Assembly: GCA_947165275.1 (NCBI GenBank)
Contig: CAMUZQ010000022.1
Location: forward strand, 1 to 34,962
DNA length: 34,962 nucleotides
Reading direction: 5' to 3'
DNA from: an uncultured Lachnospiraceae bacterium
GTDB lineage: Bacteria > Bacillota > Clostridia > Lachnospirales > Lachnospiraceae
A model generated the notes under the pieces. That model worked only from the letters and a program-made list of their open reading frames with translations. It was not told where the DNA came from and did not search any database. The position numbers were made by a program, and so were the translations under genes. Shown one piece after another: positions 6,283 to 32,049 of the stretch; positions within the stretch are counted from its first letter, which is position 1; every line of letters begins with the position of its first letter.

Positions 6283-8415
6283 TCACCCAACTGAAATATG
6301 TCTGTCCTTCACCTCTATCGTGAATGACACCGGTCTCTTTCCGGTCAGCTCAAAGCTCCTTTCATCAGGCTGTAAACCGCCTATGAAAACGGTATATCTG
6401 CCATCGAGCATTACTTCTGTACCATCCTCAAGAAATGAATCCAGAGCCGATCCGGGTATCTCAAACTCAAGCGATGTGACGGATCCGGATGCGATCTCCA
6501 CGGATCTGAAATCAACGAGGTGGTGCACCGGCTTTTCGAACGCTTCTCCTTCATATCTGACATATACCTGTACGATCTCCGTGGCATCAAAATCTCCCTT
6601 ATTCTCCACCTCTGTATGAAGTCTGATCGTCTGACCGTCGGTATCAATGCCTGTATCCTTGTATACAAATTCCGTATAGGAAAGACCGAAACCGAAGGGA
6701 TACCACGGCTTGCCGTCTATGAATTTGTATGTCCTTCCCGCCATATGATAGTCCTTGAAATCAGGCAGGGACTGATCATTATAATAGAACGTTAACGGCA
6801 GCTTTCCCGATGGGCTGATCTTTCCGAAAAGGATCTCGGAAAGAGCCTCTCCGCCGGCTTCTCCGCTGTACCACGCCTGCACGATCGCATTCGCCTCAGG
6901 CTCATATGCACTCAGATCCAGCGCGCTGCCGCTGTTTATAACGATTATCACCGGCTTTCCCATGGCGATAACCCTGTCGCAGAGCTTTCTCTGAGATACC
7001 GTAAGAAGGAGATCCGGCTTGTCTCCGGACGCAAACGCATTTCCGGTATCACCTTCTTCGCCCTCAAGATCCGCATCGAGTCCTACACAAAGGATCGTGA
7101 TATCACTGATCGAAGCTATCTCCTCAGCCTCACTGATATATTTACCGGGTCTTGCAAGCGGATCCTCCTTCTCCTCCGCTATATCACAGCCTTTGCTGTA
7201 ATATACACGTATATCGTCACCTGCAGCTTTTCTGATGCCGTCCAGATTTGTACACCATTGCCCGCTCTCTCCGTTATAATTTCCATAAAGGGCTTTTGCG
7301 CTGTATGCGTTTGGTCCGATGACGGCTATGGAGCTTATTTTCTCCCTCTTCAGAGGAAGAATGCCGTCGTTTTTCAAAAGCACCAGTGATTTTTCCGCCG
7401 CCTTGAGGGCAAGCTCGTGATTCTCTTTACAGTTCACGACCGAATAAGGGATATTGTCAAACGGACTGTTATCGTCAAACATACCCAGCCTGTACCTGGT
7501 GGTAAATACTCTTACCGCGGCGGCTCTTATCTCCTCTTCCGTTATCAGTCCCTCATCCAGGGCCATCAGAAGATATTCAAATGTGCATCCGCAATTCAGG
7601 TCGCATCCTCTTCTTACCGATATGGCTGCGGACTCCTGCGGTGTCTTCGTGAAATGATGATCTCCATGCAGATCCTTCACCGCCCAGCAGTCTGAGACGA
7701 TATGCCCGTCGAAGCCCCATTCCTTCTTGAGTATCCGGTTGATCAGCCTGTCATTTGCACAGCAGGGCTCTCCGAATACACTGTTATATGCTGTCATTAC
7801 CGCTTCCACACCGGCATCCTCGACTGCCCCCCTGAAAGCAGGAAGATATGTTTCCCTCAGATCCTTTTCGCTTGGAGATACGTCAAAACCGTGTCTCAGC
7901 GTTTCAGGTCCGGAATGTACCGCAAAATGCTTTGCGCAGGCAGCGATCTTCAGATATCCGCTCTCATCATTTCCCTGCAGACCCTCAATGAAAACCCTGC
8001 CGAGTCTTTCGGTCAGTACCGGATCCTCACCGTAGGTCTCATGACCCCTGCCCCAGCGCGGATCCCTGAATATGTTTATATTAGGACTCCAGTATGTAAG
8101 TCCTTTGTATATATCCCTGTCTCCGTGTCTTTTGGCCGCATTATATTTAGCCCTTGCTTCATCAGCGATGACTTCCGCTTCTTTACGCAAAAAATCATCA
8201 TCAAAGGAGGCGGCCATACCTATAGCCTGCGGAAAAACCGTGGCTATCCCGGCCCTTGCCACTCCGTGAAGGCCCTCGCTCCACCAGTTATATTCCGGGA
8301 TCCCCAGCCTTTCAATAGCCGGAGACTGATGCAGAAGCTGGGATACCGCCTCCGCTATCGTCATTTTTCCTACCAGCTCTTCCGCTTTTTTTCTGCATTC
8401 TTTTCTGTCTGTCAT
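6283..8415 (-). CDS. glycoside hydrolase family 3, probable cytoplasmic beta-xylosidase or beta-glucosidase
   Basis: The 710-residue enzyme probably releases single sugars from the non-reducing end of imported beta-linked oligosaccharides. The N-terminal (beta/alpha)8 domain has the beta-xylosidase-like signatures WSPNINIFRDPRWGRGHETYGEDP and KHFAVHSGPE. The GH3 nucleophile is the Asp of HIVSDCWAV (about 242). An alpha/beta sandwich domain follows (VIGPNAYSAKALYGNYNG, then LEGEEGD), ending in a fibronectin III-like domain from about 600. No signal peptide is present, so action on imported oligosaccharide is expected. The frame opens at 8448, but the ATG at 8415 has AAGAGGA at the right distance and matches family starts. 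It is divergent from the AraC-type regulator and ends in its own terminator. Xylosidase is favoured by the nearby xylulokinase; sequence alone does not settle xylose versus glucose. Confidence 0.92.
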   Translation of the reverse strand: MTDRKECRKKAEELVGKMTIAEAVSQLLHQSPAIERLGIPEYNWWSEGLHGVARAGIATVFPQAIGMAASFDDDFLRKEAEVIADEARAKYNAAKRHGDRDIYKGLTYWSPNINIFRDPRWGRGHETYGEDPVLTERLGRVFIEGLQGNDESGYLKIAACAKHFAVHSGPETLRHGFDVSPSEKDLRETYLPAFRGAVEDAGVEAVMTAYNSVFGEPCCANDRLINRILKKEWGFDGHIVSDCWAVKDLHGDHHFTKTPQESAAISVRRGCDLNCGCTFEYLLMALDEGLITEEEIRAAAVRVFTTRYRLGMFDDNSPFDNIPYSVVNCKENHELALKAAEKSLVLLKNDGILPLKREKISSIAVIGPNAYSAKALYGNYNGESGQWCTNLDGIRKAAGDDIRVYYSKGCDIAEEKEDPLARPGKYISEAEEIASISDITILCVGLDADLEGEEGDTGNAFASGDKPDLLLTVSQRKLCDRVIAMGKPVIIVINSGSALDLSAYEPEANAIVQAWYSGEAGGEALSEILFGKISPSGKLPLTFYYNDQSLPDFKDYHMAGRTYKFIDGKPWYPFGFGLSYTEFVYKDTGIDTDGQTIRLHTEVENKGDFDATEIVQVYVRYEGEAFEKPVHHLVDFRSVEIASGSVTSLEFEIPGSALDSFLEDGTEVMLDGRYTVFIGGLQPDERSFELTGKRPVSFTIEVKDRHISVG

Positions 8416-8460
8416 AAGTTCCTCTTTAATAATATTCTGTGTATACAACCGTTATATAAG

Positions 8461-9589: not shown

Positions 9590-10426
9590 TCAGCCCTTGA
9601 CGCTCCCGAGAGCGACGCCTGCTATTATGTACTTTGAAAGAAGCAGGTATACTACTATCAAAGGCAGCGCTGTAAGGGTCAGGCCCATATATATGGAGCC
9701 GTATTCCGTCTTATATATATCTCCGCGAAGAAGGGAGATCATTATAGGCAGTGTATATTTCTTCTGATCTGTAAGCAGGATCAAAGGTGTAAAGAGATTG
9801 TTCCAGCTTGATACAAAGCAGAAGATAGCCTGTGTAGCTATTGCCGGCTTCATTATAGGCAGCGCTATCTGATTGAAGATAAAGAACTCCTTCGCTCCGT
9901 CTATCCTGGCAGACTGGACTATCTCCAGGGAAAGCGCCGGCTTCATATACTGTCTCATGAAAAATACCATCGATGGCGATGCAATGGCCGGCAGGATCAG
10001 CATCGACAGGTGATTGGTCATATGTATCTTATAAACCATCTGATAGAAACCGATCATTGTTATCTGTGCAGGTATCATCATGATCGCCATGATAAAGCTG
10101 AAAAACACATTGCGGAGCTTCCACTCATAAACAACTATGGCATAGGCCGTAAGCGTCGAGAAATAAGTTGCGAGTACAGTCGCTCCGATCGATACTATAA
10201 GCGAATTGGCAAAACCAACCGCAGGATTGAAGCTCTTACCGAGAAGGATCTTCAGGTTACTGCTGAAGTATGTGGACGGTATGAGCGAAACTGCATGCTG
10301 CTGTATCTCTGTTGTAGATCTGGTCGAGTTCACGATCATTATGATAAAGGGCATCAGGCTCAGGAGTGACAAAAAGATACAGAGTATGAAAATGACTGTC
10401 TTTTTAAGGATTTGATTCTTAGCCAT
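9590..10426 (-). CDS. CUT1 sugar ABC transporter permease, MalG-like
   Basis: This inner-membrane permease (278 residues) has about six helices. The EAA-loop that docks to the ATPase is seen as VQSARIDGAKEFFIFNQIALPIMKP. The N-terminal LMPFIIMIVNSTRSTTEI and the late FVSSWNNLFTPLIL segment are typical of MalG-type proteins. It overlaps the upstream permease gene by 8 bases and carries a GAAGGAGG site inside that gene, so translation is coupled. Its stop lies 6 bases from the end of the convergent regulator gene and no terminator is visible between them. Substrate is inferred from the neighbours to be an oligosaccharide. Confidence 0.93.
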   Translation of the reverse strand: MAKNQILKKTVIFILCIFLSLLSLMPFIIMIVNSTRSTTEIQQHAVSLIPSTYFSSNLKILLGKSFNPAVGFANSLIVSIGATVLATYFSTLTAYAIVVYEWKLRNVFFSFIMAIMMIPAQITMIGFYQMVYKIHMTNHLSMLILPAIASPSMVFFMRQYMKPALSLEIVQSARIDGAKEFFIFNQIALPIMKPAIATQAIFCFVSSWNNLFTPLILLTDQKKYTLPIMISLLRGDIYKTEYGSIYMGLTLTALPLIVVYLLLSKYIIAGVALGSVKG

Positions 10427-11402
10427 TGTTTTGCTTTGCCTCCTTCATCTTCTTTTTCTGCAGCTTTATCTGCTGTCTCATGATCTTGCGCATCTCTGCT
10501 TCATCCTTGTCTCTCAGAATATAGAAAAGAAGAGCTGAGACGGCAACTATTATCACAAACATTATCATACTCGTAGCGGCTGCCCTGTTGTACAGATAAC
10601 CTCCGCTGAAGGCCTGATTATAGATAAAGACGCCTACAGTAAGTGTTGCATTGTCAGGTCCTCCCATAAGGAAGAGCTTGGGTATATCAAACATGTTCAA
10701 TCCGCCGATAAGACTTGTCACCAGCGTGAACAGCAGTATTGTCTTGATGTTGGGTATGGTGACAAACCAGAATGTCTGCCAGCCGTTGGCTCCGTCAACC
10801 TCCGCAGCTTCGTATATCTCCGGACTTATTCCAAGTATTCCCGAGATCAGTATGATCATAGTATATCCATACCACATCCAGGTCTGTATGAAGATAACGA
10901 TATTCTGCGCTATGTCTTTTTTCACCAGGAAATTATATGGCTCACTCAAAAGACCGAATCTTGTCATAAGATCATTCACAGGTCCCATCGGATAACCAAA
11001 AAGGGAATAAAACAGTATAGCCACAGTTGCTGCCGTGATGATATTGGGCATGTAGAATACTACCTTAAACAAACCCGCGCCGGGTATTTTAAATCTTTTA
11101 TCGGTAAACCATGCCGAAAGCAGCAGCGCAAGCGCCAGCTGTGGAATGAAGTTGGAAACCCACAGCTTCAGTGTATTGCCGAAAGCCGTATGGAAGGTAG
11201 GGCTTGCGAGTATGGCTTTGTAATTGCCAAATGGATCATCTAAAAAGTGTATTGTGGTATTCCCGATACCTTTCAGATCCGTAAATCCTATTACCGCCGT
11301 ATAAAGCGTCGGATACAGAGAAAAGATCAGGAAAGCAAGAAGGAACGGAAGACTGAAAAGGTACCCGTATCTTGCATAACTGAATGTACTTTTCTTTTTC
11401 AT
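10419..11402 (-). CDS. CUT1 sugar ABC transporter permease, MalF-like
   Basis: This second membrane subunit (327 residues) has six or so helices and the EAA-loop YEAAEVDGANGWQTFWFVTIPNIK. The start MKKKSTFSYARYGYLFSLPFLLAFLIF is typical. The C-terminal tail is unusually rich in Lys and Met (MRKIMRQQIKLQKKKMKEAKQNN) and would lie in the cytoplasm. The gene follows the binding-protein gene after a 122-base gap with a stable hairpin, and overlaps the MalG-like gene. No ATPase gene is in the operon. Confidence 0.93.
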   Translation of the reverse strand: MKKKSTFSYARYGYLFSLPFLLAFLIFSLYPTLYTAVIGFTDLKGIGNTTIHFLDDPFGNYKAILASPTFHTAFGNTLKLWVSNFIPQLALALLLSAWFTDKRFKIPGAGLFKVVFYMPNIITAATVAILFYSLFGYPMGPVNDLMTRFGLLSEPYNFLVKKDIAQNIVIFIQTWMWYGYTMIILISGILGISPEIYEAAEVDGANGWQTFWFVTIPNIKTILLFTLVTSLIGGLNMFDIPKLFLMGGPDNATLTVGVFIYNQAFSGGYLYNRAAATSMIMFVIIVAVSALLFYILRDKDEAEMRKIMRQQIKLQKKKMKEAKQNNG

Positions 11403-13913: not shown

Positions 13914-15377
13914 ATGTATTACATTGGTGTAGATCTGGGTACTTCCGCTGTCAAGCTCCTTCTCATGGAGTCTGACGGCACCATCACAAACATCGTTTCC
14001 GAAAAATATCCCATCGCTTTTCCGCATCCCGGCTGGTCGGAGCAGGAGCCTGCGGACTGGTGGGCAGCCGTGAAGAAGGGCATACCTGAGCTGGTTTCCG
14101 GGATAGACGCCTCAAAGGTAGCAGGCATTTCCTTCGGCGGCCAGATGCACGGTCTTGTCGTTCTGGATGAAAACGACGAGGTCATCCGTCCTGCCATACT
14201 GTGGAATGACGGCCGCACACAGAAGGAAACCGATTATCTCAATGAAGTGATAGGTAAAGAAAAGCTTTCGGAGTATACGGCAAATATTGCTTTTGCCGGA
14301 TTCACAGCTCCCAAGATCCTTTGGATGAAGGAGAATGAACCCGATAAATTCGCGCGGATCAAAAAGATCATGCTGCCTAAGGATTATATAGCATATATGC
14401 TCACAGGCGTACACTGTACAGATCCTTCCGATGCTTCCGGAATGCTCCTTTATGATGTAAAGAATCGTAAATGGTCCGAGGAGATGTGCGATATCTGCGG
14501 TATAGACCAGAGCATGCTGGCAAAGGTATACGAATCCTATGAGAAGGTAGGGACATTAAAAGAAGATGTTGCAGCTGAGCTGGGTCTTTCACCGTCTGTC
14601 ATAGTAGCGGCAGGCGCCGGCGACAATGCAGCCGCAGCAGTCGGGACCGGAACAGTGGGAGAGGGCCTTTGCAATATAAGCCTTGGTACCTCAGGCACTA
14701 TATTTATTTCCAGCCATGAATTCAAGGTGGATTCCTTTAATGCCATCCACTCCTTTGCGCATGCAGACGGATATTATCATCTCATGGGCTGCATGCTTTC
14801 AGCAGCATCCTGCAAGGCATGGTTTATAGAAGACATACTGAAAACAGACGACTATGCCGGCGAGCAGGGCAAGATCACAGATGATATGCTCGGTAATAAT
14901 AATATTTTCTTCATGCCCTACCTCATGGGAGAGCGCTCACCTTACAATAATCCCAACGCCCGGGCCGCTTTCATCGGCATGTCCATGGACAGCACCAGGA
15001 CAGATATGCTTCAGGCTGTTATGGAGGGCATAACCTTCGGGATCAGGGATTCGTACGAGGTCGCAAAGGCTCTGGGTATAGATGTCAAGCGCACCCGCAT
15101 CTGCGGAGGCGGAGCAAAGGGCGAGCTTCCGAAGAAGATGATGGCAAATATCCTGAATATAGACGTGGATGTGCCTGCGAATGATCAGGGACCTTCCATG
15201 GGAGGCGCCATACTTGCCGCTGTAGCTGCAGGTGAATACTCTACCGTGGAGGAGGCTGCCGCCAGGATAGTCAAGATGGAGGGAACTATCCATCCTGATC
15301 CTGAGATCGCCAAAAGATATGAAGAGAAATATCAAAGATACAGAAAGCTTTATCCGCTTCTTAAGGAATGGTATTAA
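13914..15377 (+). CDS. xylB: xylulokinase
   Basis: This FGGY-family kinase (487 residues, normal length) phosphorylates D-xylulose with ATP to give xylulose 5-phosphate, which enters the pentose phosphate route. Xylulokinase signatures are all present: MYYIGVDLGTSAVK, SFGGQMHGLV, AILWNDGRT, TAPKILWMKE, LPKDYI and TDPSDASGMLLYDV. The catalytic Asp is about residue 237 in GAGDNAAAAVG. The C-terminal nucleotide-binding part has RICGGGAKGELPKKMMANIL. A TAGGAGGG site is well placed. It ends in a strong terminator. No xylose isomerase gene is in the window, so that step must be encoded elsewhere. Confidence 0.96.
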   Translation: MYYIGVDLGTSAVKLLLMESDGTITNIVSEKYPIAFPHPGWSEQEPADWWAAVKKGIPELVSGIDASKVAGISFGGQMHGLVVLDENDEVIRPAILWNDGRTQKETDYLNEVIGKEKLSEYTANIAFAGFTAPKILWMKENEPDKFARIKKIMLPKDYIAYMLTGVHCTDPSDASGMLLYDVKNRKWSEEMCDICGIDQSMLAKVYESYEKVGTLKEDVAAELGLSPSVIVAAGAGDNAAAAVGTGTVGEGLCNISLGTSGTIFISSHEFKVDSFNAIHSFAHADGYYHLMGCMLSAASCKAWFIEDILKTDDYAGEQGKITDDMLGNNNIFFMPYLMGERSPYNNPNARAAFIGMSMDSTRTDMLQAVMEGITFGIRDSYEVAKALGIDVKRTRICGGGAKGELPKKMMANILNIDVDVPANDQGPSMGGAILAAVAAGEYSTVEEAAARIVKMEGTIHPDPEIAKRYEEKYQRYRKLYPLLKEWY

Positions 15378-24003: not shown

Positions 24004-27000
24004 TTAAAAAACAGTCCCTAATATAAACTTTATGCCATCCCAGTCAAGCTGTGAAAGTCTGGTCCTCAGACTGTCAAATCTTTCCTTATCCTCTGCCGGC
24101 AGTCTGTAGCCCTTCATTTCGTCAAGCACCATCTTCGTTGTCTCATAATCCATTGCCTCGGCGAAATCCGAAAGTGACAGATACGCGTCCTTTATCATGG
24201 CCTCGGGCGCTTCGGGCAGATCATCTCCCTGTTCCGCAACCGGAGCAAGAGAATCCGTATAGGATCTGAAAAGTGCCAGCAGAGCAGGCGTATCCTCTTC
24301 TATCACACTAAGATTCCGTGCATCCCCCGCAGCCTCAAGGAGCCTTGCCCTCTCTGAAATCTCCGTCGCTCCTATGATACGGGCGGAGGATTTCAAGGCA
24401 TGGACCTTTATAGTATAATTCTCCCAATCCCTGTCATCAAAATATCTCTGGATCTCATCCGCCTTTTCCGCTACAGTTGACTGGAAGCTGACAAGGATGG
24501 AAATATAGCTTTCCACTGAACCGCAGTTTTTAACTCCGGAATCAGCATCGACCGCCGTGCTTTCCTCGAGCCATTCGGGAAGCTTCTCTTCACCGGACTC
24601 CTCTTCGGCAATACCGGTATCCGCAGGGACTGTCTCTTCAGGAGCCGTTTCTGCGTATGCCTGTATCTCCTCCGGCGGCGTATCCGTCCGGGATGTATTA
24701 TTCAGAAGCTCCTCCACGAATTCCGCAACCGCGCTGTCCTTATAGCCCCTCTCATTCATCAGATAGTCCGTATCCGAATCTATAAGCTGCAGCATTTTGT
24801 CCGCTACTGCGGGATCAAACTGACTGCCGCTGCATCTCTGGATCTCGGCTCTGACATCAGCCTGCGCCCTGATATTTGAATAAGAACGGTTGGATGTCAT
24901 GGCATCATAGCTGTCAGCCACGCAGATGATCCTTGCTATAAACGGTATATCCTCCCCTGATCTGCCATCGGGATATCCTTTGCCGTCGAATCTTTCGTGA
25001 TGCCATCTGGCGCCTGTCGCAAGCTCGGGGAGCTCTGTAATGGTTTTAAGGATATCATATCCCATGGCGGGATGCTGTTTGATCTGCGCGAATTCTTCAT
25101 CTGTAAGCCTCGCGGGCTTATTGATTATCTCCTCCGGTACACCGATCTTACCCACGTCATGAAGCAGACCGATATCATGAATTTTGACCAGATCTCCTCC
25201 TGACATTCCAAGCTTTGCCGCAAGCATTGTCGTATATCCGGCGACACGCTCCGAGTGTCCGTTTGTATAGTGATCCTTTGCGTCGACAGCCTTTGACAGA
25301 ACCTCCATGATCTCCTGGGTAAGGTGCTCTATCCGTAAGGTCTTGATATTTACCTCTTTTTGCAGACTCTTTTGAAGTCTTGAAAGATTTATGGAGTGTC
25401 CTACTCTCTGAAGCAGTATTTCCGATGCGATCGGCTTACGGACAAAATCCCAGGCTCCCGCCTTTAATCCCTTCATCTCTGTATCGCGGTCATCACTGCC
25501 TGTCAAAAAGATCACGGGGATCGATCTGGTCCTGCTGTCAGACTTCAGTCTCTGCATCACGTCAAAGCCGTCTTCATGCGGCATTTTAACATCGAGCAGG
25601 ACAAGGTCCGCCTCAGTCTCCCGAAGCCTTGCAAGCCCCGCTTCTCCCGAATCATACGCTTCGAAACGATAGGCCTTGCCCAATATTCCCCCGGCAAGCT
25701 TATGCATGGTGCTCTCATCATCTATCATTATCACAAGGGGCTTCTGATCAGTATCCCGTGCTTCTTCTTTTCGGGTTTTTGTTTCTTCCTCACGCTTTAT
25801 TACATGCACCTTGCTTTCAGGAAGATAACGTATGAGCATATCCTCAAGCTTTTCAGAGTCTATCGGTTTTGTCAGATAATCGGCAAAGCCTATGGTAAGG
25901 TACTCCTCCCGCGCTCCCGAAACCGCGTTTGCAGTAAGGGACACCACCGGCGCGTCAATGCTCTTATTATCCGGAAGCTCTCTCATTTTTTTGAAGCATT
26001 CGATCCCGTCCATATTCGGCATCCGGTGATCCAGGAAGATGATATCGTAAGCGTTTTTTACCACAAGCTCCAGAGCTTCCTGCCCGCTCCCGGCAGTGTC
26101 GATGTGTATCCGAGTCTTTTTCAGGAGATTCTTCATTACCTCAAGGTTCATTCTCGTGTCATCCACAACAAGGATGCTGGCGTCCTGCGCAGTGAATTTC
26201 TCGCGGTATTTCTTATGATCCAGGGAAGCCTTCCTCCATCTGTCATTTATATCTCCGATGGGCTCGTCCCTTGATATCCCCTGCTTTATGATAAATGAAA
26301 AAGTGGAACCCTCGCCGTATTTGCTCTCGACATGAAGCTCACTCTCCATGAGTCCTAGCAGCTGGTTTGTGATATTAAGTCCAAGTCCCGTGCCCTCTAT
26401 GGTCCGGTTTCTTTCCTCCTCCACACGCTCGAAGGCATTGTAGAGTCTGGCCATATCTTCTTCCTTTATGCCTATTCCCGTATCCTTTACGGAAACCTCA
26501 AGCTTTACCGGGTTTGTAAAGCAGGCCGCTCCATGACATTCTTCCCTCTTTCGGGGGTCCTTATCCTCCGGAGAGTCCGCTCTTCTTATCTTTAATGTAA
26601 CACTGCCCTTTTCCGTATATTTGACCGCATTGGTAAGTATATTTGTGATCACCTGCTTGAGCCGTATTTCGTCTCCGTACAGGATGGCGGGAATAGACGG
26701 ATCGATATCAAGCTTTATCTCAAGCCTCTTATCCTCCGCCCTTTTCCTGATCACGTTATACAGATCATTTATAACGGACGCAAATTCGTATTCTACCGGA
26801 ATGATATCCATTTTTCCGGCTTCGATCTTTGAAAAATCCAGCACATCATTGACAATGCCAAGAAGGCTGTTGCCTGCGGAATGGATATCCTCGGCATACT
26901 CAAGTATCTCAGTTTCATTGCTTTCCCTGAGGATCATTTCGTCCATACCGAGGATCGCGTTTATGGGGGTCCTTATTTCATGGGACATATTGGAAAGGAA

Positions 27001-28359
27001 TGCGGATTTTGCGATGTTTGCCGCCTGCGCTTCCTTTGCCATTCCCTCGAGCTGACTCGTCATCTTGCCCATAAATACAGACATTCTCTCCGATAAGGGG
27101 ACAATTTTATCATGATGCAGGCATCTGGCGTATCTTTCTATATGCTCATGTACAGTTCCATGTCCTTCGCCCTCGCTCATCCCTATCGCCAGATGGGCGC
27201 TGTTTAAGACGCCTCCCATACCATGATGGTAATACAGCTCGCTTGCCCCGTGAATAAGCGCGTAATCCGGAGCTATATTCTTAAAGCACTCCCACTCAAG
27301 TCTTGCGTCCTCATGAAGAAAATTGATCCGGTTTCCGCAAAGTATGAGAAATACCGCTTCCGGACCAAATTCCTCCATCCTGTCATGGGACTCCCTGGCC
27401 GCGCTCAATACCTCATCATGTGAAGCAAAGGAAAATCTCAGGAGCTCCCCCTCCTTCAATGCAATATTGAAATACAGCTCACCGTTTTTGCCGAAATCAA
27501 AGGGAATGAGGCAGATATCTATCCCCTCTCTCTGTACCATAAGGGGGAACTCGCAGATATTTCTTATAAAGTAATCATTGGGTTCAACCCCTAAATACTC
27601 ATTGAAAAGATCCACTGCCCTCACTCCGTCGATCTCGGTAAGAGCGGTTTCTCCCGATTTCTCCCTGTCAGCTTCTATGGTAACCGGCATCCCCCGTCCT
27701 ACGGGGTGCCAGCCCAGGGCATAATTCATCTGCACCCTCAGCTTCTCACCCGAGAATAATACGGCTACCAGACCATCCGATATGATCTCATCGCCTATGG
27801 CAAATTCGTTGTCCCTGAATATGCTTCTTCCGAAATTCAGGATATTCAGGTTATCAGTAGTCATGCCCCTGGGCATTCTGTAGGAGGTTACAGTACCGAA
27901 AACGCCGATATCCTCACGTCCCTTAAAGGCCTGCTCCATTACATGAGTCATCCCTATGCCCATATTGCTGAAAAAGAGCTCTGCGGCTTTTGTCTCAGGA
28001 TGCTCATCGATCCTGCTTCTGAGCTCTTCTGCTACCGAATCCTCTTCTCCGGGCTTAAACGGTATGGTTATCACGTCAATATCGGTCTCTTCCGTAAGTA
28101 TCAGATTCAGTCTCACGCCCACACCCATCGGACGGAGATCCGCTATGGCATAGAGCGAGCATCCGGCAATCTTCACATCGCCTATGCCGCTGTTTCTTAT
28201 CTTGTCGATCAGATTCAGGATCTGTTTTTTCGGAAATCCTGTCTCATATATGGTTATCAGGGCATCCTTATGAGGATGGCCCAATACCGTATTCCTGAGA
28301 TCGCCCATCACTGTTCCTATGAGCATGGGATTGTTTATAAGATAGTCCTTCTGGATCAT
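24004..28359 (-). CDS. giant hybrid sensor: FIST-HisKA-HATPase-REC-REC-HD-GYP-HPt
   Basis: This 1451-residue cytoplasmic protein has no membrane helix. Domains in order: FIST_N and FIST_C small-ligand sensor (about 25-400); HisKA with His460 (SHEIRTP); HATPase_c (about 565-693) with N577, DTGIGI at 626-631 and GTGLGL at 656-661; receiver 1 (about 727-846) with Asp777, Thr809 and Lys831; receiver 2 (about 874-990) with Asp923, Thr953 and Lys975; HD-GYP c-di-GMP phosphodiesterase (about 1010-1205) with H1067-D1068 (LLHDVGKIG) and HHERFDGKGYP at 1120-1130; an acidic linker; HPt with His1320 (KVHALKSSARIIG); and a helical tail of about 80 residues. All catalytic residues I can check are present. 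It could pass phosphate His460 to Asp777 to His1320 to Asp923 or to the next gene's receiver, and so tune c-di-GMP breakdown; this route is inference. It lies 29 bases after the HAD-GH3 gene. Confidence 0.93.
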   Translation of the reverse strand: MIQKDYLINNPMLIGTVMGDLRNTVLGHPHKDALITIYETGFPKKQILNLIDKIRNSGIGDVKIAGCSLYAIADLRPMGVGVRLNLILTEETDIDVITIPFKPGEEDSVAEELRSRIDEHPETKAAELFFSNMGIGMTHVMEQAFKGREDIGVFGTVTSYRMPRGMTTDNLNILNFGRSIFRDNEFAIGDEIISDGLVAVLFSGEKLRVQMNYALGWHPVGRGMPVTIEADREKSGETALTEIDGVRAVDLFNEYLGVEPNDYFIRNICEFPLMVQREGIDICLIPFDFGKNGELYFNIALKEGELLRFSFASHDEVLSAARESHDRMEEFGPEAVFLILCGNRINFLHEDARLEWECFKNIAPDYALIHGASELYYHHGMGGVLNSAHLAIGMSEGEGHGTVHEHIERYARCLHHDKIVPLSERMSVFMGKMTSQLEGMAKEAQAANIAKSAFLSNMSHEIRTPINAILGMDEMILRESNETEILEYAEDIHSAGNSLLGIVNDVLDFSKIEAGKMDIIPVEYEFASVINDLYNVIRKRAEDKRLEIKLDIDPSIPAILYGDEIRLKQVITNILTNAVKYTEKGSVTLKIRRADSPEDKDPRKREECHGAACFTNPVKLEVSVKDTGIGIKEEDMARLYNAFERVEEERNRTIEGTGLGLNITNQLLGLMESELHVESKYGEGSTFSFIIKQGISRDEPIGDINDRWRKASLDHKKYREKFTAQDASILVVDDTRMNLEVMKNLLKKTRIHIDTAGSGQEALELVVKNAYDIIFLDHRMPNMDGIECFKKMRELPDNKSIDAPVVSLTANAVSGAREEYLTIGFADYLTKPIDSEKLEDMLIRYLPESKVHVIKREEETKTRKEEARDTDQKPLVIMIDDESTMHKLAGGILGKAYRFEAYDSGEAGLARLRETEADLVLLDVKMPHEDGFDVMQRLKSDSRTRSIPVIFLTGSDDRDTEMKGLKAGAWDFVRKPIASEILLQRVGHSINLSRLQKSLQKEVNIKTLRIEHLTQEIMEVLSKAVDAKDHYTNGHSERVAGYTTMLAAKLGMSGGDLVKIHDIGLLHDVGKIGVPEEIINKPARLTDEEFAQIKQHPAMGYDILKTITELPELATGARWHHERFDGKGYPDGRSGEDIPFIARIICVADSYDAMTSNRSYSNIRAQADVRAEIQRCSGSQFDPAVADKMLQLIDSDTDYLMNERGYKDSAVAEFVEELLNNTSRTDTPPEEIQAYAETAPEETVPADTGIAEEESGEEKLPEWLEESTAVDADSGVKNCGSVESYISILVSFQSTVAEKADEIQRYFDDRDWENYTIKVHALKSSARIIGATEISERARLLEAAGDARNLSVIEEDTPALLALFRSYTDSLAPVAEQGDDLPEAPEAMIKDAYLSLSDFAEAMDYETTKMVLDEMKGYRLPAEDKERFDSLRTRLSQLDWDGIKFILGTVF

Positions 28360-28388: not shown

Positions 28389-31300
28389 TCAATTAGCCAT
28401 GTATTTCATACTCAAAAGCTTAACGTCTCCAAAAAGACGTATTTCCGTTTTGCCGGTTAATGACGCTCCGTTAAGATCATGGATCAGACATTCTGTCTCA
28501 CTCCATGCTGCCGGCCCTCCTTCGGGTAAGATCGTATTCTCCGAGGGCAGCTCATACAGGGGCAGCTTCTTTTCAGGAGAAACTGTATTTCCCTCCCATC
28601 CGGCAATACGGTTTTCATTCCAATAGATCTCGACCCTGCCGTTTGTCCCGGATTTTAACAACAGCATCACCTTTTTCGCCTTTTCGGGCATATGGTTTTT
28701 TGTAAATATAAGCGATGCAGTTCTTCCCTCTTCCCTTACTGAAGCCGCGGTCATACCGAAGTGACCCTTTGTAAACTCGATATTCTCATAGAAATCGCAG
28801 GCGTACACAGGGTTAAGGTCAGACAGCTCCCGTGCCTCGAAATCCTGTCCCTTAAGGGTTATATCGCAGGATACGATCTCATTAAGAGCATCCCGTCCGG
28901 CGTAAATATGATACCTGCCGCCGTATATCATGTAGTCATTCAGCACCACATCGAAAACCTGAAAACTGGACTTATCAATGGCAAGCTTTATTTCCCTTTC
29001 TTCGCCCGGCTTTATGTCATGTACCCTCGTGAAGCCTATGAGCCTTCTGCCGTAACCGTAATCTCCGAATTTATCATCCGAAAAATCCGCCGTGGTATAT
29101 ATCTGGACCACCTCATCCGTTACATACGGCCCGTTGTTACGGATATTGACCGTCACTTCCGTTTTAAGGCCGTCCCCACTCTCTCCTGCGGTCATTCCCG
29201 TATAGGATATTTCACTGTAGGTAAGCCCGTACCCAAAGGGATAAAGTATCCCGTCCGTTAAATATCTGTATGTCCGCTTTCCTCTTATCTGATAATCAGT
29301 TATATCCGGCAGCACCTCACAGGAAACAGGCCAGGTCTGCGTCAGCCTTCCCGCCGGCGCTGTCCTGCCGAACAACGCCGCTGCCACCGCATCCCCCATG
29401 TATTCCGAACCCGAAGCTGAAAGCAGCAGCGCATCCGTCCTTTTTTCCATACCGTTAAAGATATAGGGATAATTTGAGATAAGAACCGTTATTATCTTTT
29501 TACCTGATCCTGCCATGGCTTCAAGAAGCTTCTGCTGTCCCGGCGGCAGCGCAAGCGAAGTCCTGTCAAAATCCTCTCTTGCGGGTACCATGGGATTACA
29601 GCCGAGCACCAGGATCACGCAGTCCTTACCGGAGACGGCTTTTATCGCCTCCTCTGTCCCGTCAGTTGTCTTTTCAAGTGAGAACTGCATTTCCGGAAGC
29701 CTGTCATCCGCTTTTAGCCTTCCTTCAGCCGTTACCGATACCGGCTGGTTGAACCTGTCTTTTATCCTGACATTTCCGTTGCCGGCATCACTTATATTGA
29801 ATCTGCAGGTCACAAACCAGTCAAGGGTATCCTCCCTGTCCGCGCAGAGTATCTCCCTATCATCCTCTGATGCTGCATAAAACAGGATCTGTACATATTT
29901 TCCGGTTTTTGTGCTTCTTATCGTATGGTAGCCTTCACCCCAGTCTTCTATATAGAAGGTATCTCCCTCAGCCCTGGAAGCCAGCGTGACCTTCCCGTCC
30001 GGTTCCAGATGCCATGCCTTGTCTCCGGATACGATACGGTATTCATCAATTCCTTTCGTTACCGGAAAATCCATATTTAACAACGCCTTCAGACCGTCAC
30101 TGACTGTATGGCAAAAAGGCGGATTTCCTCCATACCAGTCTTTATACCATTCATCGGCAAGGGGTCCGACCAGAGCGATATTTCCGGCATCCTTCAAATC
30201 CAGAGGCAGCGCTGCAGCCTTGTTTTCAAGCAGCACCAGGGCTTCCTCTGACAGTCTGCGGCATATTTCCCTGGCTTCTCCGGTATCGATCTCACCGGCT
30301 GAAATGCCGTCATAGGGACAGGTGCCCTCAGGATCATAGATGCCAAGCTTCATCTCTGCCATCAGAATATTCCGCAAAGCCCCGTCCAGCTCTGCTTCCG
30401 ATAAAAAAGAAAGCTCCAGGGCATCACGCACTGCTTTTTCCACATCCTCCGGCTTGTCCGACATACTGTCGACCCCTGCCCTTACGGACTCCGCCATACA
30501 CTCTGCAAGCGTTCCGTATTCCCTGTGAAAATCCTTTAATTTGGCCATGGCAAAGCCGTCACTGACCGCATGGGTCAGCCCGTGCTTTCCCTTAAGGAGC
30601 TTTCCGACCTCCGGATTCGTCATTCCGGGAACCCCGTTTATCTTGTTATATGCGGTCATCACGCCCAGGGCTTTGCCCTCATCAATACCTGCAAGGAAGG
30701 GCGGGAGATAATATTCAAATTTATCACGCATGCCTACGGATGAATTGGAAAAAAACCTGTCGGCTTCCCTGTTATTGGCATAGAAATGCTTAAGAGTCGC
30801 TCCGCATTTAATATATTCGGGGTCATTTCCCTGCATTCCCCTGATATAGGACACGGCATTTACAGAGGTGAGCAGAGGATCTTCTCCATATCCCTCCTCA
30901 TTTCTTCCCCAGCGGGGATCTCTTTCCGGGTCTACTGTAGGCGCCCATCTTGAAAGCCCTGTTTTTCTGTGACGCTTCCAGCAGGCTCTGGCTTCATCAC
31001 CCACAACTGAACCTGCTTTATAAATAAGGCCGGTATCCCAGGATGAGCTCATCCCTATGGGATTCGGGAAGGATGTCGTTTTATCAGGAGTGTTTATCCC
31101 GTTCTGCTCGTTTCTGGCCTCCACTCCATGTGCGGCTTCCCCGCCGAGGAAGAAGCCTTCCACACCCAGTCTTCCCACTCCCCTTTCAGGATGGGAATAA
31201 AGGGTGATCTTCTCCTCCAGAGTCATTTCAGATAAAAGCCGGTTTATCCTCTCCTCCCTCGGAATCCCGGGATCATGGAAAATATTGCTTATACCGTCAT

Positions 31301-31901
31301 CCGAGAGCAGTCTGTCAAGATATCCGGACAAAACCTCCTCCGAATATATCACCCGTCCGTCTATCCCGCATTTTCTCCCGCCGTCCACATTGTCCTGTCT
31401 GTCATCAAAAAAGAGACATTCCGCGGGGTCCAGTTCATATTCCGATAACAGGGACTCATATATTTCCTTATGCGGCTTGAGCTGGTGTACCTTGTAGGAT
31501 ATGATCCCGCCGTCTACACTGTCAAAAACAGGCTGTCCCTCTGTATGCTTACGGAGCATCCTTTCGGAATAGTTGGAAAGCAGATATATATTATACCCTT
31601 TTTCCTTCAGTCTCCGCATTTTCTCCCATATCTGCGGTCTGGGAACCGGCATACGCTCCAGATGGCCGAATATATATCTGATATGTTCCTCGTCAGACGG
31701 ATATTTGGCCACGTAATCCTCCACCACATCATCAAATGGTCTGATACCTATATCAAATTCAAGCCACAGAGGGTCCTGAAAGATCCGTCTTCCGAAAGCT
31801 CTGGCTTCTTCCTCGTCAGTCACCGTTTCCATGATGATATCAAACCACCTGTATGAAAACAGTACTCCGCCTATATCAAAAATAATATTCTTGTATTTCA
31901 T
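28389..31901 (-). CDS. fusion of a HAD-family sugar phosphatase and a GH3 glycosidase
   Basis: The protein has 1170 residues and no signal peptide. Residues 1-200 are a complete HAD-IA phosphatase of the YihX (alpha-glucose-1-phosphatase) type: Asp9 in IIFDIGGVLF, Ser109 in YLLSNYSE, Lys142 in LKPHKEIYE and Asp166-Asp167 in CLFFDDRQDN. GH3 starts at about 205 (DPGIPREERINRLLSEMTLEEKI), with RWAPTVDPERDPRWGRNEEGYGEDP, KHFYANNREADR and the nucleophile Asp448 in HAVSDGFAM. The alpha/beta sandwich domain (about 550-865) is interrupted at about 620-745 by a beta-rich insert with a fascin/ricin-like look (YRIVSGDKAWHLEPDG, TGKYVQI). A fibronectin III-like domain (about 905-1005) and a further beta domain (to 1170) follow. 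The frame is continuous with no sign of a lost stop. It is the first gene of the region 4 operon. Glucosidase and glucose-1-phosphatase activities are predicted, not shown. Confidence 0.9.
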   Translation of the reverse strand: MKYKNIIFDIGGVLFSYRWFDIIMETVTDEEEARAFGRRIFQDPLWLEFDIGIRPFDDVVEDYVAKYPSDEEHIRYIFGHLERMPVPRPQIWEKMRRLKEKGYNIYLLSNYSERMLRKHTEGQPVFDSVDGGIISYKVHQLKPHKEIYESLLSEYELDPAECLFFDDRQDNVDGGRKCGIDGRVIYSEEVLSGYLDRLLSDDGISNIFHDPGIPREERINRLLSEMTLEEKITLYSHPERGVGRLGVEGFFLGGEAAHGVEARNEQNGINTPDKTTSFPNPIGMSSSWDTGLIYKAGSVVGDEARACWKRHRKTGLSRWAPTVDPERDPRWGRNEEGYGEDPLLTSVNAVSYIRGMQGNDPEYIKCGATLKHFYANNREADRFFSNSSVGMRDKFEYYLPPFLAGIDEGKALGVMTAYNKINGVPGMTNPEVGKLLKGKHGLTHAVSDGFAMAKLKDFHREYGTLAECMAESVRAGVDSMSDKPEDVEKAVRDALELSFLSEAELDGALRNILMAEMKLGIYDPEGTCPYDGISAGEIDTGEAREICRRLSEEALVLLENKAAALPLDLKDAGNIALVGPLADEWYKDWYGGNPPFCHTVSDGLKALLNMDFPVTKGIDEYRIVSGDKAWHLEPDGKVTLASRAEGDTFYIEDWGEGYHTIRSTKTGKYVQILFYAASEDDREILCADREDTLDWFVTCRFNISDAGNGNVRIKDRFNQPVSVTAEGRLKADDRLPEMQFSLEKTTDGTEEAIKAVSGKDCVILVLGCNPMVPAREDFDRTSLALPPGQQKLLEAMAGSGKKIITVLISNYPYIFNGMEKRTDALLLSASGSEYMGDAVAAALFGRTAPAGRLTQTWPVSCEVLPDITDYQIRGKRTYRYLTDGILYPFGYGLTYSEISYTGMTAGESGDGLKTEVTVNIRNNGPYVTDEVVQIYTTADFSDDKFGDYGYGRRLIGFTRVHDIKPGEEREIKLAIDKSSFQVFDVVLNDYMIYGGRYHIYAGRDALNEIVSCDITLKGQDFEARELSDLNPVYACDFYENIEFTKGHFGMTAASVREEGRTASLIFTKNHMPEKAKKVMLLLKSGTNGRVEIYWNENRIAGWEGNTVSPEKKLPLYELPSENTILPEGGPAAWSETECLIHDLNGASLTGKTEIRLFGDVKLLSMKYMAN
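31329..31341 (-). promoter_or_regulatory. in-gene ribosome site and TTG between HAD and GH3 parts
   Basis: On the coding strand GGAGGAGG (31341-31334) is followed two bases later by an in-frame TTG (31331-31329), codon 191, exactly at the HAD-GH3 junction. Initiation there would give a free GH3 of 980 residues. It may be chance from Glu-Glu codons. Confidence 0.35.
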
Positions 31902-32019: not shown

Positions 32020-32049
32020 AAAGCCGGCTCCATGAAAGAAGCCGGCTTT
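32020..32049. terminator. hairpin downstream of glgD
   Basis: A 10-bp perfect stem AAAGCCGGCT / AGCCGGCTTT encloses a 10-base loop, 27 bases past the glgD stop. The minus-strand U tract is short (TTT then A residues); the plus strand has TTTTT. It probably stops most glgCD transcription but may leak into the HAD-GH3 operon. Confidence 0.7.

Follow-up and report, generated by a model that had tools for sequence, protein, structure and literature searches.

The window, by which we mean the whole stretch of 34,962 nucleotides that was analysed, carries on its minus strand one gene (28389..31901, an open frame read from 31901 to 28389) that encodes a protein of 1170 amino acids followed by a stop codon, and all the features of this gene given below lie on that same strand. 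A sequence-only reading of the DNA had placed a frame of 1170 codons here, and its coordinates and length prove right, the strand being the minus one. The protein opens with a YihX-like HAD domain with a helical cap (residues 1-200, 31302..31901), recognised by Pfam family PF00702, by a match to YihX (8pno) and in an AlphaFold2 model, and both sequence and model have the HAD core begin directly at the protein N terminus. The PF00702 match spans residues 3-179 and the entire profile (1-191 of 191, E 7.4e-16), and its 59.5 bits against a gathering score of 26.4, together with motifs I-IV, make the domain a member of HAD superfamily IA. A linker without a stop codon (residues 200-207, 31281..31304) leads into a GH3 module (residues 208-1020, 28842..31280) that consists of a barrel, a C domain and an Fn3-like domain. 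Pfam places the GH3 N domain at residues 274-513 (profile 81-314 of 316; 103.2 bits against a gathering score of 27), the GH3 C domain at residues 555-895 (133.3 bits against 31) and the Fn3-like domain, also over its cut-off, at residues 930-1004. Within the C domain sits a fascin-like beta-trefoil insert (residues 617-748, 29658..30053), which has 12 strands in the AlphaFold2 model and matches the profiles of fascin (E 2.9e-10; 62 of 136 positions) and of designed trefoils, while RicinB_lectin_2 (E 0.0038) stays under its cut-off. Such a trefoil in the C domain is common to GH3-only relatives too. The chain closes with a beta-rich C-terminal domain (residues 1031-1170, 28392..28811) that is seen in the model and has no Pfam match. 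The model, which comes without a domain-domain error estimate, is mostly confident (pLDDT 90.6, pTM 0.88).

Active sites and specificity of the two halves

The sequence-only reading had described the first part as a complete YihX-like HAD with all four motifs, and these are indeed present as D9, S109-N110, K142 and D166-D167. Motif I reads D-x-G-G-V, so that Gly occupies the position of the second Asp that many HAD phosphatases carry there. The nucleophile of this motif, Asp9 (31875..31877), is invariant in all nine of the fusions described below, as are the other HAD catalytic residues, and motifs I-III are also kept in both HAD-only relatives (G432 and G433). This invariance bears on the idea that the HAD half mainly serves the dimerisation or stability of the GH3 half, for which the phosphatase half of soluble epoxide hydrolase is the comparison. 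A match to TIGR02247, 'epoxide hydrolase N-terminal domain-like phosphatase' (5e-10), points that way from under its cut-off, at 39.5 against 125.4 bits, but a scaffold would hardly call for every catalytic residue to be kept or for the HAD half to outlive the GH3 half, and we regard such a role as improbable. By sequence, the nearest solved structure is YihX of E. coli (8pno, E 1e-10, 45 bits; also 2b0c), which shares HAD subfamily IA and aligns over residues 86-198 with motifs II-IV; the similarity is weak, and YihX stands alone whereas the HAD of the fusion does not. The glucose-1-phosphatase equivalog PRK09456 scores 44.1 bits against a cut-off of 295. YihX itself gave no psicose from psicose-6-phosphate (extract of PMC10576766).

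In the GH3 half, alignment finds an Asp nucleophile at Asp448 (30558..30560), as the sequence-only reading of a complete GH3 enzyme had proposed, and a Glu acid/base at Glu776 (29574..29576). The two residues align with the positions that differ between the T. maritima beta-xylosidase 7zb3 and its mutant 8c7f, where Asp is changed to Asn and Glu to Gln, the PDB title of 8c7f giving D281N and E517Q of that enzyme. Asp448 is found in nine of nine fusions and Glu776 in all eight that reach this position. Most likely, to judge from these residues, both active sites are intact.

Glu255 (31137..31139) is placed by alignment at the xylosidase-type glutamate of the -1 subsite, Glu62 in PcBxl3 and Glu89 in TrXyl3A, which binds O4 of xylose in those GH3 beta-xylosidases while a Trp lies near C5 (extract of PMC8913315). 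Two residues before Glu255, at the position of this Trp, the fusion has Gly253. Since the Glu is present and the Trp is replaced, the site is xylosidase-like in part, and the -1 subsite may perhaps have room for a sugar larger than xylose. Next to PcBxl3 (7vc7), TrXyl3A (5a7m) and the T. maritima enzyme (7zb3), all of which have the Trp and no HAD, the trefoil insert and the C-terminal domain are likewise features of the fusion; GH3 beta-glucosidases such as PSTG1 (9lql) also have no HAD. The nearest curated model is Xyl3A of NCBIfam, at 376.8 bits against an equivalog cut-off of 1250, and none of the matched NCBIfam equivalog models for beta-glucosidase, xylosidase or glucose-1-phosphatase reached its cut-off. 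Fold comparison, which covers model residues 205-1022 only and barely touches the HAD and the C-terminal domain, ties beta-glucosidase with beta-xylosidase.

The GH3 half might also have been a phosphorylase that feeds a sugar-1-phosphate to the HAD half, by analogy with GH65 and its beta-phosphoglucomutase. Mutase function requires the second Asp of HAD motif I, however, and this candidate is disfavoured by the motif I found here and by the Glu acid/base. The phosphorylase activity of the GH3 enzyme Nag3 is explained by a His acid/base (extract of PMC8950772), and in a comparison with Nag3, one of two GH3 phosphorylases on record (the second is BglP), the fusion has Glu776 instead. Because the acid/base is Glu and phosphorylase activity is ascribed to His, hydrolysis is favoured and phosphorolysis unlikely; an extract of PMC6987092 questions whether every GH3 enzyme of the His type is a phosphorylase, which leaves the Glu case untouched.

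Occurrence, origin and losses of the fusion

The same continuous frame is found in nine of the 48 genomes of the genus, 45 of which give some match: G000, G401, G402, G403, G408, G424, G428, G429 and G438, the window's own genome included. Four of the frames (G401, G408, G428, G438) end at contig ends, and over their aligned parts the eight other fusions are 58-72% identical to the window protein. The sequence-only reading had called for a search for this order in other genomes, and had held that an error would be indicated if close relatives always encoded the parts separately; eight other genomes encode them fused. The genome behind the window is indeed a draft in 153 contigs, in which two genes could have been joined through a stop codon lost in sequencing or assembly. 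But the same order in nine genus genomes at these identities is not what a sequencing error leaves behind, a short linker is present in each fusion-bearing genome in the alignment of the nine, and the fusions, from separate assemblies, form one clade, so that we consider an artefact extremely unlikely. The fusion is thus confirmed as a real joining of two complete domains.

Among 24 loci from named genomes, three hold the fusion, namely those of the metagenome-assembled genomes (MAGs) RUG12868, RGIG3644 (goat rumen, the fusion cut at a contig end) and RGIG1624 (goat abomasum), and all fusion-bearing records with names are MAGs. Their matches agree with G429, G408 and G403, and we treated them as the same assemblies and did not count them twice. 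In a family sample of 397 genomes (371 with some match) the fusion appears, among the matches listed, solely in the window's own genome, and the same holds for a phylum sample of 398 genomes, 30 of them with a match at the stricter limit of 1e-50; in both samples up to two candidates were scored per genome, among which a fusion should rank first, though the fusion of a more distant HAD to a GH3 could escape notice. Three long GH3 frames, in L024 (1283 aa in the locus), G210 (1287 aa) and G546 (1213 aa), contain no HAD match. The 22 pattern matches in viral contigs include no relative of the fusion, and in the best 20 of 505 matching plasmid records none extends before residue 191. Most likely, then, going by these samples, this is a narrowly distributed combination of two known families, and the combination is new. 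The sequence-only reading knew of no well-described enzyme with this order, and we too found none in the open-licence PMC literature, where, among the papers listed by searches for HAD fusions, no title or abstract start names a HAD-GH3 fusion.

In the trees, a single clade (support 100/100) takes in the GH3 halves of all nine fusions, set among GH3-only genes of other genera. The HAD halves likewise fall into one clade (97/99), which also contains the HAD genes from G432 and G433, the two of 11 HAD-holding genomes that have the HAD without the GH3. The fused label requires three changes on the HAD tree, which fits one gain and two losses of GH3; forks within the fused clade are mostly poorly supported, and the placement of G432 and G433 is inexact. 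In G433 the frame passes the junction and then breaks, and GH3 residues 835-853 follow in another frame, a scar that, as far as its sequence tells, is the mark of a large internal deletion. No GH3 remnant adjoins the HAD in G432, and we infer that this genome lost its GH3, as opposed to never having had one. HAD-only genomes exist and no genus genome, among the matches listed, has a GH3 of the fusion clade without the HAD, so the HAD is the more persistent half. G079 has glgD at 85% identity and neither half of the fusion, and in other genera the GH3 relatives are proteins without a HAD. The trees support a single origin of the fusion, within one clade of a Lachnospiraceae genus, and two losses of GH3.

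Mean pairwise identity is 0.73 for the HAD and 0.70 for the GH3 barrel (36 pairs each), 0.53 for the trefoil insert (36 pairs) and 0.44 for the C-terminal domain (15 pairs). Synonymous differences, at 0.67-0.89, are near saturation, with dS saturated in most pairs, so that selection can be read qualitatively only. The nonsynonymous ones are lower, at 0.05-0.24 for the HAD and 0.16-0.27 for residues 211-616 of the GH3. Both halves have most likely been under purifying selection since the fusion.

The junction and the neighbouring genes

Three of the nine fusions (the window, L041 and L042) have, 17-24 codons ahead of the GH3 part, a GTG or TTG codon placed about 2 bases behind a Shine-Dalgarno-like run, a spacing that is tighter than usual. 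The other six were scanned at the junction and show no GTG or TTG behind such a run, and an internal GH3 start is therefore not a conserved feature; where it occurs, it could possibly yield some free GH3.

The genes glgC-glgD adjoin the fusion gene in the window, and glgD is adjacent in ten of the 11 HAD-holding genomes, the remaining case being G438, where the fusion is close to the end of one contig and glgD close to the end of another. In the ten, glgD and the HAD lie on the same strand seven times and are convergent three times (G403, G424, G433). Between glgD and the fusion gene of the window stands a strong hairpin (32020..32049, minus strand; -22.1 kcal/mol, z -4.5), a possible terminator. 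A terminator scan, which found 5 sites against 2.9 expected, lists a weaker site at 31997-31985 and not this hairpin. An operon with glgCD is disfavoured by the changes of orientation and by the hairpin. Compared with the window, L079, L080 and L052 have the fusion in either orientation between glgD and MATE or trigger-factor-like and asnS genes.

These neighbours bear on the proposal of the sequence-only reading that the protein may join two glucose-yielding steps, a glucose-1-phosphatase and a beta-glucosidase, a proposal considered here together with a tie to the adjacent glycogen genes. YihX as the nearest solved structure, the glg genes next door with glgD adjacent in nearly all HAD-holding genomes, and the fold comparison that ties beta-glucosidase with beta-xylosidase all lend it something. 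It is weakened by the xylosidase-type Glu255, by the equivalog cut-offs that were missed, by the hairpin and by the varying orientation of glgD; nor was a glg gene recognised among the minority of neighbours that could be named at four HAD-only loci. We think it unlikely that the proposal holds.

Beside the GH3 of three GH3-only loci (L089, L090, L092) lie genes for an ABC permease and a binding protein, and beside that of L091 a binding protein; of the six such loci, which also include L088 and L093, this count refers to the four whose neighbours were scanned. The four HAD-only loci have no GH3 gene nearby. At L096, the gene for a stand-alone HAD relative is flanked by araA (L-arabinose isomerase) and a sugar symporter gene, a setting that gives a faint hint of pentose phosphates as HAD substrates.

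Two probably autonomous active sites on one chain

The explanation we lean towards, at somewhat better than even confidence, is a bifunctional enzyme of the cytosol with two autonomous sites, of one origin, twice deprived of its GH3 half and held under purifying selection. On a single chain, a YihX-like HAD at the N terminus would be followed, after a short linker, by an exo-acting retaining GH3 beta-glycosidase; the HAD would dephosphorylate a small sugar phosphate, while trimming imported plant oligosaccharides would fall to the GH3, these being of xylose or glucose type, and the two sites would work independently, probably in the cytosol.

The sites might instead be coupled through the tether in a two-step enzyme, in which the HAD takes the phosphate off a phosphorylated plant glycoside, or off a sugar phosphate that has been released, and cleavage is left to the GH3. 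We know of no counterpart to a phosphorylated-oligosaccharide route of this two-step kind, and we give the scheme little credence. In a broader form of coupling, the substrate of the HAD would be either a phosphorylated glycoside or a sugar phosphate made or required by the GH3, and compounds would be handed from one site to the other, as happens in HAD-terpene cyclases. There are precedents for a HAD that works on the product of its partner. One is AsDMS, likewise a HAD phosphatase fused to an enzyme, though not to a glycosidase, whose HAD works on the cyclase product (extract of PMC12365925); another is MtlD, known here from a PDB title, a HAD phosphatase fused to an enzyme that is again no glycosidase. 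The junction is also kept in nine genomes, which could mean selection for tethering itself. Against coupling stand the HAD alone in two of 11 genomes, the GH3 relatives of other genera without a HAD on the chain and the HAD-only loci without a GH3 nearby, and we judge it a less probable account, though not a negligible one. The HAD kept without GH3 argues against strict coupling and is still compatible with a benefit of tethering; since it persists in this way in two genomes, the HAD does not have to rely on the GH3 for its substrate.

The locus offers a conserved, verified fusion in which a HAD of sugar-phosphatase type is joined to a GH3 glycosidase, of single origin by the trees, and the two HAD-only genomes provide a natural test of how far each half depends on the other. 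Should the halves cooperate, they would link plant-polysaccharide breakdown with sugar-phosphate control in gut bacteria.

Elsewhere in the window, a hybrid sensor kinase of 1451 aa with FIST, histidine kinase, receiver, HD and Hpt domains (24004-28359, minus strand) starts 29 bases past the end of the fusion gene, and the HAD of G432 is followed by a different kinase-like gene (about 30% identity). Further along lie a second GH3 gene, nearest Xyl3A at 759.5 bits against the cut-off of 1250, and near it two ABC permease genes (6283-8448 and 9590-11402, respectively, both on the minus strand), as well as the xylulokinase gene xylB (13914-15377, plus strand), which at 567.7 bits is over its cut-off. 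Together, these genes suggest a pentose-use region.
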